A stretch of 33,429 nucleotides of DNA from Methanobacteriota archaeon (GTDB lineage Archaea; Thermoplasmatota; Thermoplasmata; RBG-16-68-12; JAFNFQ01): NCBI GenBank assembly GCA_017885655.1, contig JAFNFQ010000023.1, positions 1-33,429 on the forward strand, written 5' to 3'. The notes beneath the pieces were generated by a model. The model ran no database searches. It had not been told where the DNA came from and saw nothing but the letters and a program-made list of their open reading frames with translations. Position numbers and translations under genes: made by a program. Every line of letters starts with the position of its first letter. The stretch's first letter is position 1. Below, in pieces: positions 7,009-9,884 of this stretch.

Positions 7009-7616
7009 TCTCCCGACGGAATGTCTAATGCCGCAATCCGGACGGATTGCTCCTCCATTCGGGACGACCCATCCTGCGTCCGGATGGAATTCGCCTCGAC
7101 CCTCACGGAGACAGCGCGATTCCAGGCTCAGGTCGTGAGCACGCTCGCAGACCACCCGCCAACGGTTCCTGAGTCCTCCTCGATTCAGACATACCTCCCC
7201 TCGATAGTTGCGGAATCGCCCTCGATCCGGGTGGACCCTGCCTCGGTGTGGGAGGACCTCTCCTACGCGTAGGAACCGTTCTCCTACGGCGGGACGGACA
7301 TTTCCTACATCCGAATGGAACCTTCCTACGTGTAGGAGGACTCCATCCGGGTCATCTACACCCCATCAGACCGGGGACAGGTTCCTCCTACGTGTAGGAG
7401 GACCTTGTCCAAACATAGGAGGCTCCCTCCTGCGCGTAGGAACATGTCTCCTACGTGTAGGAGGACTCCGTCCAGACGCGATTCGGGCCGTCAGCATGGT
7501 TTAGACCCTGGTCAGAGTGAGGACGACCCTCTCCTACGTGTAGGAGGACTCCTCCTCGGCGTAGGAGGACCTCGCCTACATGTAGGAAGATTCCGTCCCG
7601 GAGGTCCTCCCCATAG
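7009..7616. repeat. Degenerate tandem array, strict 21-bp period, about 28-29 units (array 1)
   Basis: Units start at 7009, 7030, 7051, 7072, 7093 and so on, every 21 nt; in the later half clear unit starts are 7261, 7282, 7303, 7324, 7386, 7428, 7449, 7532, 7553 and 7574. The early units resemble TCCTCGATCCGGGTGGACCC. The late units resemble TCCTACGTGTAGGAGGACTC and contain a near-palindromic core (TCCTAC-GT-GTAGGA). Read in phase from 7009, the first 12 units encode heptads such as SSIRDDP, PSIRVDP and ASVWEDL. The TAG inside the later core closes this frame at 7270-7272. No spacers are present, so it is not a CRISPR. Whether it is a decayed coding repeat, a protein-binding array or a minisatellite cannot be decided from this window. 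Confidence 0.85.
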
Positions 7617-7640
7617 AAGCGGTCGAGGAGCGGGCGCGTC

Positions 7641-7735
7641 GAAAGTCGTTTATCTCGGCGGCGCAATGGTATTTCCGCGTCTGTGATGCGAAGAGGGTCA
7701 GCTGATCATCGTGATTGACCATATGAGTGCTGAGA
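7641..7735 (+). repeat. Left copy of a ~95-bp direct repeat flanking the abiE cassette
   Basis: Aligns without gaps to 9561-9655 at an offset of exactly 1920 nt. By hand count 77 of 95 positions match, with 44 of 46 identical in 7690-7735. It holds a promoter-like element (GAAAGTCGTTTATC, 7641-7654) and the C/D box RNA described separately. Confidence 0.85.
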
Positions 7736-7738
7736 TGC
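7677..7738 (+). ncRNA. Box C/D sRNA candidate, copy 1 (D guide matches tRNA-Met C34)
   Basis: Elements in order: 5-bp terminal stem strand GCGTC (7677-7681); C box GTGATGC (7683-7689, one deviation from RUGAUGA); 12-nt D' guide (7690-7701); D' box CTGA (7702-7705); 5-nt spacer; C' box GTGATTG (7711-7717, degenerate); 12-nt D guide ACCATATGAGTG (7718-7729); D box CTGA (7730-7733); closing strand GATGC (7734-7738, one G-U pair). A BRE/TATA-like element at 7641-7654 would start transcription at about 7676, the base of the stem. In the D guide, the fifth base before box D pairs with C34 of a tRNA-Met anticodon loop (CUCAUA). The imperfect C box suggests this copy may be weaker than copy 2. The identification is by inspection only. 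Confidence 0.65.
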
Positions 7739-7818
7739 CTTGCCGTCGAGTCATTGTGAGCACGGAGTCTGAGATTGGGGCTTCCATGTCCTCGTCAGCT
7801 GATTGGCGGAACGCAAGT

Positions 7819-7866
7819 CATAAATACATTCATGTCATAACATCCCAATAATAGGGACATTATGAC
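7819..7866 (+). promoter_or_regulatory. abiE promoter with a palindromic operator overlapping the start codon
   Basis: A TATA-like CATAAATAC lies at 7819-7827. It is followed by inverted arms GTCATAACATCCC (7834-7846) and GGGACATTATGAC (7854-7866), which pair at 11 of 13 positions around a 7-nt spacer. The right arm covers the antitoxin ATG at 7862. AbiEi antitoxins are known to repress their own promoter by binding inverted repeats, so this is the likely autoregulatory operator. Confidence 0.65.
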
Positions 7867-8497
7867 TGAAATGAATACTCCTGCCATATGGAAGAAACTG
7901 CTCGTCGAAGGGCGCAGGATGGTCACCTCGGGCGAGATAATGGAGCTTGCCGCCCAGGCGGGGAAAAAGGGGGACCGCAGCCTGCGATACCTCATCGAGC
8001 ACGGCTACATCGCCCGCATCCTCCGGGGCATCTTCTACGTGCGCAGCGCGGACGAGCGCGAGCGCGGCTACACTGAACGCTCGACCTTCGAACTGGTGGC
8101 GGAAGCCCTGGTATTGAAGGGCGTGAAGCGCTGGTACTTCGGCATGGAGACCGCCCTCAAGCTCAACGGCATGACCCATGAGTACTTCGCGGTCGACTCG
8201 GTCGTCACCGATTCCTTCAGGACCACGAAGGTCATAGGCATCCTCGGTTCGAAGTTCCAGTTTCACAGGTGGAGCGCCGACCGCTTCGGCTTCGGTTCCG
8301 TTCGAAAGGGCCGCCTGACGTACTCGGATCCCGAGAAGACAGTCCTCGACATGGCTTACAGGACGCACCGCCAGGGAAAAGGTTCGCCGAGGGACGTCAT
8401 CATGGAGCACATAGAGAGGTTGAACATGGACAAGCTCCGAAGGTACCTTGCGCGCTACTCGATGCGATTCCGGGAGGCCATGGGAGAACTGCCATGA
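7862..8497 (+). CDS. AbiEi-type antitoxin / transcriptional repressor of a type IV toxin-antitoxin pair
   Basis: A 211-residue protein upstream of, and overlapping by 4 nt (ATGA), an AbiEii nucleotidyltransferase. The N-terminal ~60 residues form a winged helix (RMVTSGEIMELAAQAG, then LIEHGYIARILRGIFYVR, the wing typical of AbiEi N-terminal domains). The remainder is the AbiEi effector domain, including KRWYFGMETALKLNG, the phrase that usually reads as 'y.g...Al.lhG' in the family. It should counteract the toxin and repress the operon. The start is at ATG 7862; a second in-frame ATG at 7871 is possible. The island lies between repeated C/D RNA genes, which suggests acquisition. Confidence is high for the family and moderate for the antitoxin role in this host. 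Confidence 0.85.
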   Translation: MTEMNTPAIWKKLLVEGRRMVTSGEIMELAAQAGKKGDRSLRYLIEHGYIARILRGIFYVRSADERERGYTERSTFELVAEALVLKGVKRWYFGMETALKLNGMTHEYFAVDSVVTDSFRTTKVIGILGSKFQFHRWSADRFGFGSVRKGRLTYSDPEKTVLDMAYRTHRQGKGSPRDVIMEHIERLNMDKLRRYLARYSMRFREAMGELP

Positions 8498-9420
8498 AGG
8501 ATTTCTTCGAGCGCCTGAACGCCCTGGGGAAGCCGCGGAGGACCGACATCATTGAGAAGGACTTCCACCTGCACCGGCTTCTCCACGCCATGTCCCTGGA
8601 CACGCACCTCAGGAAGAACCTCGCCTTCAAGGGCGGGACGTGCCTCATCAAAGCCTACCTGGGCTACTACCGCTTCTCCGAGGATGTGGACTTCACCTGG
8701 CGCGACTCGGCGATCTGGAAAGGGAGAAGCCTGTCGGAGACTAGGCGGCGGTGCTCGAAGGAAATTGACGAGGTCCTGAGGCGGGTCAAGTCCATCTCAG
8801 GGGACCTGGGCTTCAGCTTCGAGGGCGACAAGTCGGACAAGAGCGAAGTGCATATCAGCAGCGGCGGCAGGATGGTCCTCCTCTGGCTCGGGTACGATTC
8901 GGAGGTCCTCGGAGTCCCGTCCAAAATCAAAGTCGAGGTCAATCTAGTCGACAAGATGCTCTTTCCCATTGTGGAAAGGAAGGTGCACAGCTATGTCGAG
9001 CAGCTGGAATCCAGGGAACTCGCCTTCCTCTACGAGAAACCCTGGAAGGAATACTCGGCGAAGATAGAGCTCCCCTGCTATAATGCGCGCGAGATATTCG
9101 TCGAGAAATGCAGGGCAGCGCTGACCAGGAAAGTCCGCAAGCTCAGGGATGTCATCGACATCGTCTACATGGGCGAGAAGCTCGACTTTGCGATTTCCGA
9201 TTTCGTGCCGCAGATTCTCGACAAGGTCCGATTCATGCTGGAGACCTACGAGCGGTATCGCGACAACATCGAGCTTCCGAAGGGGTCGATGCCTGACATC
9301 GGAGGCGCCGACGAGATGCGTTTGGTCCTCGGAGAACCCCTGGCGGGCATCGCCAGCAAGATAAGGAGAGTCAATGAGCATCTGGAGGGAATGCGGAAGA
9401 AGCTGTTGTCGGACAGGTGA
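8494..9420 (+). CDS. AbiEii-type nucleotidyltransferase toxin
   Basis: A 308-residue predicted nucleotidyltransferase of the type IV toxin-antitoxin AbiEii/DUF1814 family; the better-studied members are growth-inhibiting NTP transferases. Landmarks: EKD (21-23); FKGGTCLIK (45-53, the GG-S/T motif and Lys53); YRFSEDVDF (59-67, with Asp64 and Asp66 as metal ligands); the later EKCRAAL segment (about 203-209); and RDVIDIVY (about 217-224), matching the usual 'EK..AL...R..RDl.Dl' block. All catalytic positions look intact, so the enzyme is probably active. ATG 8494 overlaps the antitoxin stop as ATGA, indicating translational coupling. An in-frame extension upstream to 8269 exists but lies within the antitoxin gene and is not needed. 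Confidence 0.9.
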   Translation: MKDFFERLNALGKPRRTDIIEKDFHLHRLLHAMSLDTHLRKNLAFKGGTCLIKAYLGYYRFSEDVDFTWRDSAIWKGRSLSETRRRCSKEIDEVLRRVKSISGDLGFSFEGDKSDKSEVHISSGGRMVLLWLGYDSEVLGVPSKIKVEVNLVDKMLFPIVERKVHSYVEQLESRELAFLYEKPWKEYSAKIELPCYNAREIFVEKCRAALTRKVRKLRDVIDIVYMGEKLDFAISDFVPQILDKVRFMLETYERYRDNIELPKGSMPDIGGADEMRLVLGEPLAGIASKIRRVNEHLEGMRKKLLSDR

Positions 9421-9560
9421 CGGTAGGATGATGGTGTTCGGCATCGCCAGCAGCCTCGCAACCGTCGAGGACGCCAGGTAAATGCGCTAGTTCGGTCGTT
9501 GAGGCGCGAAGGCAGATTCGTGAGCACCCGACGGCTGGCCTCGCCGCGTGGAAGCAAGCC

Positions 9561-9655
9561 GAAAGCCGTTTATCCCGCCGCCATGATGAGGTCCTCGCGT
9601 CGATGATGAGAAGAAGGTCAGCTGATCATCGTGATTGACCCTATGAGTGCTGAGA
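9561..9655 (+). repeat. Right copy of the ~95-bp direct repeat flanking the abiE cassette
   Basis: Ungapped partner of 7641-7735. The promoter-like block GAAAGCCGTTTATCCCGCCG (9561-9580) matches the left copy at 17 of 20 positions, and the RNA part at 44 of 46. Confidence 0.85.
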
Positions 9656-9658
9656 CGT
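9597..9658 (+). ncRNA. Box C/D sRNA candidate, copy 2 (D guide matches tRNA-Met C34)
   Basis: Terminal stem strand GCGTC (9597-9601); perfect C box ATGATGA (9603-9609); 12-nt D' guide GAAGAAGGTCAG (9610-9621); D' box CTGA (9622-9625); 5-nt spacer TCATC; degenerate C' box GTGATTG (9631-9637); 12-nt D guide ACCCTATGAGTG (9638-9649); D box CTGA (9650-9653); closing strand GACGT (9654-9658). The 12-4-5-7-12 spacing is that of archaeal C/D guide RNAs. By the N+5 rule the D guide targets the C in CACU-C-AUA, which is C34 of a tRNA-Met anticodon loop. A box C/D RNA guiding this modification is known in Haloferax volcanii. A TATA-like element at 9561-9574 fits a start at about 9596. CTTTTC at 9671-9676 may help termination. 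The D' target is not identified. Confidence 0.72.
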
Positions 9659-9884
9659 TCCAGCATTGGGCTTTTCATGGTCGCGGAGCTCCAAGGAGGG
9701 GTGGTGGGACGGTGCCGAAGCCTAGGCAGAAGCGGGCGATAAGAGTCCTACGGCAACCTCCGCAGTCATGTCGCGCCCGGTCAATCCGTTATTAGCTTCG
9801 CTTTATCGTTCGCGATTCCGACCCTCACGACTTGAAACCCGCAAAGGGCGCACTGGCGACTCCTGGAGAAGAAGGTTCACGCCA
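9659..9884. other. Intergenic stretch without a recognisable gene
   Basis: Nothing convincing on either strand. A TATA-like CGCTTTATCG at about 9795-9804 could drive a short transcript, but no open frame or RNA signature follows. Confidence 0.4.

Follow-up and report, generated by a model that had tools for sequence, protein, structure and literature searches.

The segment 9597-9658 of the window, by which we mean the whole 33,429-nt stretch of DNA that was analysed, is, judged from its sequence, an archaeal box C/D sRNA gene. The RNA encoded here (copy 1) almost certainly directs methylation of C34 of elongator tRNA-Met before the intron of this tRNA is removed. We hold it very probable overall that copy 1 is a guide for Cm34 of pre-tRNA-Met, that it belongs to a Thermoplasmatota family whose members usually carry two guides, with the D' guide most likely aimed at C1920 of 23S rRNA, and that copy 1 and a neighbouring paralogue (copy 2) are probably dividing these two jobs between them.

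The features by which archaeal box C/D sRNAs are recognised, namely boxes in the order C-D'-C'-D, guides of 10-13 nt and a terminal stem, are all present in copy 1 (Table 1). Each element of the layout that had been proposed in the initial annotation was found in its place, that is the boxes, both 12-nt guides, the 5-nt spacer between boxes D' and C' and the 5-bp terminal stem, in which one pair is G-U; the C' box is a weak match. The BRE/TATA-like promoter element which had also been anticipated at a suitable distance begins 37 nt upstream of the stem, and the TTTATC within it 28 nt upstream. The gene is intergenic, lying downstream of the AbiEii gene, and the genome of the window encodes the sRNP proteins fibrillarin (7.2e-72) and Nop5 (Nop 4.9e-54). 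An origin of the element as a tRNA intron or as a single gene was rejected, as ARAGORN reports no tRNA in the window.

Table 1. Positions in the window of the predicted sRNA genes, their parts and the neighbouring genes
Feature	Position	Strand	Basis or remark
Box C/D sRNA copy 1, terminal stem to terminal stem	9597..9658	+	GCGTC 9597-9601 / GACGT 9654-9658
Copy 1 promoter, BRE/TATA-like CGAAAGCCGTTTATCC	9560..9575	+	TTTATC at 9569-9574; sequence and identity with copy 2 promoter
Copy 1 box C, ATGATGA	9603..9609	+	sequence; columns conserved in alignment A1
Copy 1 D' guide, 12 nt, GAAGAAGGTCAG	9610..9621	+	A-C mismatch at guide position 7 against 23S
Copy 1 box D', CTGA	9622..9625	+	sequence
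Copy 1 box C'-like, GTGATTG	9631..9637	+	sequence
Copy 1 D guide, 12 nt, ACCCTATGAGTG	9638..9649	+	pairs with elongator pre-tRNA-Met over 11 contiguous bases, fifth position facing C34
Copy 1 box D, CTGA	9650..9653	+	sequence
Box C/D sRNA copy 2 (paralogue)	7677..7738	+	stem GCGTC/GATGC; 92% identity over 60 nt, E 1.9e-18
Copy 2 promoter, BRE/TATA-like CGAAAGTCGTTTATCT	7640..7655	+	sequence and repeat comparison
Copy 2 box C, GTGATGC	7683..7689	+	last base departs from consensus
Copy 2 D' guide, GAAGAGGGTCAG	7690..7701	+	10 contiguous pairs with 23S UGACCCUCUU, C1920 at fifth position
Copy 2 box D', CTGA	7702..7705	+	sequence
Copy 2 box C'-like, GTGATTG	7711..7717	+	sequence
Copy 2 D guide, ACCATATGAGTG	7718..7729	+	first intron base mismatched; longest pre-tRNA-Met run 7
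Copy 2 box D, CTGA	7730..7733	+	sequence
AbiEi/AbiEii type IV toxin-antitoxin genes	7862..9420	+	AbiEi 7862-8497, AbiEii 8494-9420; neighbours, outside the guide system

A guide of this class pairs over about nine or more bases with a stable RNA and places the base to be modified opposite the fifth base upstream of box D, and copy 1 does both. The elongator tRNA-Met gene of the window genome (G000:C85:2901-3007) contains a 31-nt intron, its exon ending in GACTCATA and the intron starting with GGGT. With ACTCATAGGGT of the precursor (ACTCATA/GGGT across this junction) the D guide of copy 1 forms 11 contiguous Watson-Crick pairs, the sole mismatch falling on the guide base that adjoins box D; four of the 11 pairs lie within the intron, and the duplex energy is -18.2 kcal/mol. 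The proposal that the fifth guide position faces the wobble base C34 is thus borne out in the organism's own gene, and the check that the initial annotation had called for, alignment of the guide to this gene with its intron, shows that the pairing holds outside CUCAUA as well. Shuffled guides never gave a Watson-Crick run of at least 10 bp in the pre-tRNAs (0/400; observed 11), and 16S rRNA and the available 23S sequence were rejected as targets of the D guide, with longest contiguous runs of about 8 as compared to 11 in pre-tRNA-Met.

Three tRNAs of the window genome carry a CAU anticodon, and from their acceptor and anticodon-stem features we take them to be elongator tRNA-Met, initiator tRNA-Met (AGCGGGG..., which has an intron too) and tRNA-Ile2 (GGGCCCGTAGC...). 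Since spliced tRNA-Met, initiator pre-tRNA-Met and tRNA-Ile2(CAU) each pair with the D guide over a run of only 7 (about -8), the substrate would be the unspliced elongator precursor. The intron adds both stability and specificity to the pairing, the four pairs within it separating the elongator pre-tRNA-Met from initiator and Ile2, which argues for methylation before splicing. We envisage that the copy 1 RNA would assemble with L7Ae, Nop5 and fibrillarin into an sRNP and that this particle would 2'-O-methylate the wobble C34 while the intron still resides in the precursor.

The element is widely conserved. A 106-nt query found homologues in 29 of 61 relatives, the window genome counted, and the covariance model R1, built from 29 sequences, has matches in 154 of 300 genomes of the class and in 57 of its 89 genera; in the window genome it scores 75.5 bits for copy 1 (G000:C23:9596-9660) and 71.8 bits for copy 2. 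The window genome is the single representative of its own family in the sample. All six pairs of the terminal stem change on both sides, and the covariation score of the stem is 0.455; shuffling gives 0.225, none of 500 shuffles reaching the observed score, and sliding the stem gives 0.053-0.258. Pairing with the target is kept as well: among 21 relatives, these being the ones in which sRNA and tRNA-Met were both recovered, each of the 22 sRNA copies matches the pre-tRNA-Met of its own genome in a run of 10-12 contiguous pairs, G-U included, and the sole short D pairing among the 24 copies compared, a run of 7, is that of copy 2 in the window genome. By our own tally, which ignores phylogeny and treats families that are non-independent samples, the tRNA-Met intron starts with GGG in 38/38 guide-bearing genomes versus 2/11 from families f14, f15, f22 and f29, and a box-pattern search of these four families revealed nothing convincing as a D guide. 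In an exact scan of 84,980 GTDB species the pattern AAGAGRGTCA...CCCTATGAGTNCTGA occurred in 84 stretches, a pattern that variants in other phyla would escape. For the 80 loci listed, the titles refer to Thermoplasmata, Poseidoniales, DHVE2/Aciduliprofundum, Methanomassiliicoccales, unspecified Euryarchaeota, an unspecified archaeon and one bacterium; the last is probably misbinned, and apart from it the two-guide form so far appears limited to Thermoplasmatota among the GTDB matches listed.

What, then, would the second guide of this RNA address? The consensus D' guide of the family, AAGAGGGTCA, persists in many families of the class and pairs without a break over 10 bases of 23S UGACCCUCUU. 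Its fifth position faces a base that we take, from the helix 69 sequence and the known pseudouridine positions, to be C1920 in E. coli numbering. C1920 of helix 69 is the most likely target of the D' guide. The UGACCCUCUU stretch sits within the 23S match of the window genome; 21 of 48 genomes yielded it, and the bases to be paired differ in one of these only, G111, which belongs to f12, a family without the C1920 D' guide. Helix 69 is a hotspot of predicted archaeal methylation (PMC4644070), and C1920 is a site of the bacterial enzyme TlyA (PMC5778110). The two guides also occur apart in the class, families f11, f12, f17, f18 and f20 keeping the tRNA guide only and f29 the rRNA guide only. 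In the f29 genome G282 an sRNA at L194 77-148 carries the conserved C1920 D' guide together with a different D guide, GAGACCTTCTAGG; the tRNA-Met intron of this genome begins with AGG, not GGG. The A at D' position 7 by which copy 1 departs from the consensus also occurs in the single-copy relatives G006, G002, G012 and G024. A compensating U1922 in 23S was considered and rejected, as the 23S is unchanged in G000, G002 and G006. Possibly the duplex tolerates this mismatch, or the organisms can do without the rRNA job; because the A is present in single-copy relatives, and the paired 23S bases of G002 and G006 are unchanged, it appears that the rRNA guide can decay alone.

Copy 2 emerged when the genome of the window was itself searched at the DNA level, with matches at two places, 9575-9680 and 7676-7735. 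The two copies lie about 1.9 kb apart as parts of a 96-nt direct repeat that includes the promoter (7640-7735 and 9560-9655, spacing 1920). They are identical at 16/18 positions of the promoter and 55/60 of the RNA, as against 7/18 of the linker and about 30% of the flanks, which is near background; both RNAs therefore look selected, since promoters and RNAs stay similar while linker and flanks have diverged. Copy 2 departs from the family consensus by an A at position 9 of the D guide, and thus the D guide CCCTATGAGT is intact in copy 1 only and the D' guide AAGAGRGTCA in copy 2 only, a reciprocal change that amounts to one substitution per copy. The duplex energies follow the same division: with pre-tRNA-Met copy 2 reaches -11.6 as compared to -18.2 for copy 1, and with 23S copy 1 reaches -11.0 as compared to -17.6 for copy 2. 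A second tRNA-Met gene with a TGG-starting intron that would suit copy 2 was not present among the pattern matches listed, and retargeting of copy 2 to initiator pre-tRNA-Met was rejected because the 8 pairs, one of them G-U, are unconvincing. The pattern suggests that the duplicates may have become subfunctionalised. In the course of events that we propose, the sRNA gene would have been duplicated together with its promoter, leaving copy 1 with the tRNA guide and copy 2 with the rRNA guide, and the jobs are probably now being divided.

The kind of guide to which copy 1 belongs is already known, archaeal C/D RNAs for Cm34 of tRNA-Met existing in haloarchaea and in Pyrococcus. The precursor tRNA-Met that serves as target in Haloferax has its intron present. 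The haloarchaeal RNA is sR-tMet (RF02163), which answers to the Haloferax C/D RNA for C34 invoked in the initial annotation; it directs Cm34 of elongator tRNA-Met, in Haloferax on the precursor tRNA (Joardar et al. 2011, as cited in PMC4033218). Like copy 1 it is a box C/D sRNA, its D guide containing CCCUAUGAGUGC, and the D guide of the window, complementary around C34 and reaching into the intron, follows the logic that has been reported for the Haloferax RNA. However, the D' guide of sR-tMet is unlike that of the window family and its D'-C' region is shorter, whereas the D' guide of the latter has a conserved match in 23S rRNA, and the window genome has two paralogues; copy 1 scores 26.2 bits, short of the 50 bits at which the gathering cut-off is set. 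For Pyrococcus, a C/D sRNA has been reported for position 34 of tRNA-Met (PMC7994747). sR41 (RF01126), another archaeal box C/D sRNA, shares the D guide core GCCCUAUGAGcgCUGA and the overall size, and f11 members of the class (L188 and L190) reach its gathering score, but copy 1 attains 27.1 bits against a cut-off of 54, and the D' half of sR41 is unlike AAGAGGGTCA. The best Rfam match of copy 1 is to sR3 (RF01133; 31.3 bits, under the cut-off of 41), whose gathering score is reached by four relatives (L032, L037, L059 and L196); the likeness stems from the boxes and from a shared portion of the D' guide (GGGUC), whereas sR3 has a D guide of its own, CCGUUGGAGC. An Rfam search of the window at the gathering threshold returned nothing. 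The covariance comparison with archaeal C/D models that had been proposed as a check therefore places some relatives in sR41 or sR3 but copy 1 below the cut-offs of sR-tMet, sR41 and sR3, and for this reason we file copy 1 as a box C/D sRNA that would work like sR-tMet and not as a member of that family.

Two more distant systems invite comparison. The classical C/D RNA of the tRNA-Trp intron guides Cm34 and Um39 of tRNA-Trp. It shares with the window RNA the methylation of a wobble C on an intron-containing precursor, and its f19 version has the AAGAGGGTCAG D' guide in common, but it forms the intron of the very tRNA that it targets, whereas the window RNA is a free-standing gene that would act in trans. 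This D' guide (AAGCGGGTCAG in G088) is found within the tRNA-Trp intron C/D RNA at L164 71-118, L166 71-117 and L167 74-121 (genomes G088, G308 and G209, respectively), and in two of the three the intron guide can form a 10-base pairing with 23S at C1920. In human cells two guide RNAs, SNORD97 and SCARNA97, cooperate for Cm34 of elongator tRNA-Met (PMC6601510), which is likewise RNA-guided but eukaryotic, and we claim no sequence relation. What is new is the predicted Thermoplasmatota family with its paired tRNA and rRNA guides and its reciprocal duplicate.

Could the features at 9597-9658 be a mere chance likeness within an intergenic region? The element is very short and matches no Rfam model at the gathering threshold, but the homologues in 154/300 genomes, the covarying stem and the pairing kept with each genome's own pre-tRNA-Met make this virtually inconceivable, and chance resemblance was ruled out on grounds of conservation. 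The second guide leaves more room for alternatives. In Pyrobaculum, tRNA-directed C/D sRNAs have a single targeted guide and a second one without target (review, PMC7994747), and the window RNA could in the same way be a guide for tRNA only, with the D' half as a scaffold that has no rRNA target. The mismatch in the D'/23S duplex of copy 1 would fit such a scaffold, as would the five families that retain the D guide without the D' guide. Yet AAGAGGGTCA is kept in many families as the exact complement of a near-constant 23S stretch, which counts against a scaffold since a scaffold needs no conserved guide, and f29 (L194) retains the D' guide beside a different D guide, so that we regard a tRNA-only role as improbable. 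It is also quite improbable that the D' guide aims at nucleotide 39 of pre-tRNA-Trp rather than at 23S rRNA. The D' core GGGTCA does fit this position in some relatives, and the three f19 genomes have the D' guide, identical or with one base different, inside the tRNA-Trp intron, where it has a 6-7-base pairing with the 3' exon of that tRNA. However, guide positions 8-11 (AAGA) are conserved and match U1923-U1926 of 23S, the f19 tRNA-Trp exons have a G opposite position 8, and for two of the three intron guides of f19 the match to 23S is better than that to tRNA-Trp (10 versus 6). We prefer 23S over tRNA-Trp because the conserved positions 8-11 fit the former and not the f19 exons of the latter.

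As to the duplication, there might instead be no division of labour at all, the copies being redundant or copy 2 being in decay. We think this unlikely, though it deserves real weight: box C of copy 2 is off consensus, its D guide is mismatched, and partial copies of the family exist elsewhere in the window genome and in relatives. Then again, the contrast of the linker with the RNA and promoter indicates that copy 2 was retained while unconstrained sequence changed, and copy 2, alone of the 24 copies in having a short D pairing, has a perfect D' guide. The fuller version of our proposal, in which one bifunctional Thermoplasmatota RNA for the pre-tRNA-Met wobble position and C1920 would have been split here by duplication and reciprocal guide loss, is a serious possibility which we stop just short of calling probable.

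The surroundings of the two genes deserve mention in their own right. The sRNA repeats (7640-9655) enclose just a complete AbiEi/AbiEii operon (Pfam AbiEii 9.6e-28; PADLOC AbiEi 3.1e-42 and AbiEii 4.6e-53), an arrangement which looks as though the operon had entered the sRNA gene by insertion or had been duplicated along with it; AbiE genes were not seen beside homologous sRNAs at the homologous loci examined. Short palindromic repeats of the TCCTACGTGTAGGA type cluster directly upstream of copy 2 (7250-7600), and a 21-nt tandem array lies at 7531-7594. Elsewhere in the genome, the D guide with D box and GACG stem recurs exactly or almost exactly at two further places some 770 nt apart, G000:C25:9487-9498 and C25:10258-10269 (L115, about 989 and 1758); these have no recognisable C box, and a CTCA before the guide gives a small CTCA/TGAG hairpin. 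Two relatives, G001 and G006, carry a duplicate of the sRNA's 3' half (C', D guide, D and stem) behind an unrelated 5' half (L116, minus strand 5486, and L117, minus strand 985).

A two-guide Thermoplasmatota family would break the generalisation drawn for tRNA-directed C/D sRNAs (PMC7994747) that only one guide is targeted, and it would couple a tRNA mark that is critical for decoding with a conserved match in helix 69, an intersubunit helix of 23S rRNA, across much of the phylum. If the division of labour is true, the duplicate pair would offer a natural test, on a small scale, of the way in which an RNA gene with two functions comes to be split, and what each copy should do is clearly predicted. 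Finally, the intron-dependent pairing would explain how three tRNAs with the same CAU anticodon are distinguished, and it may be a reason why the intron of tRNA-Met has been retained.
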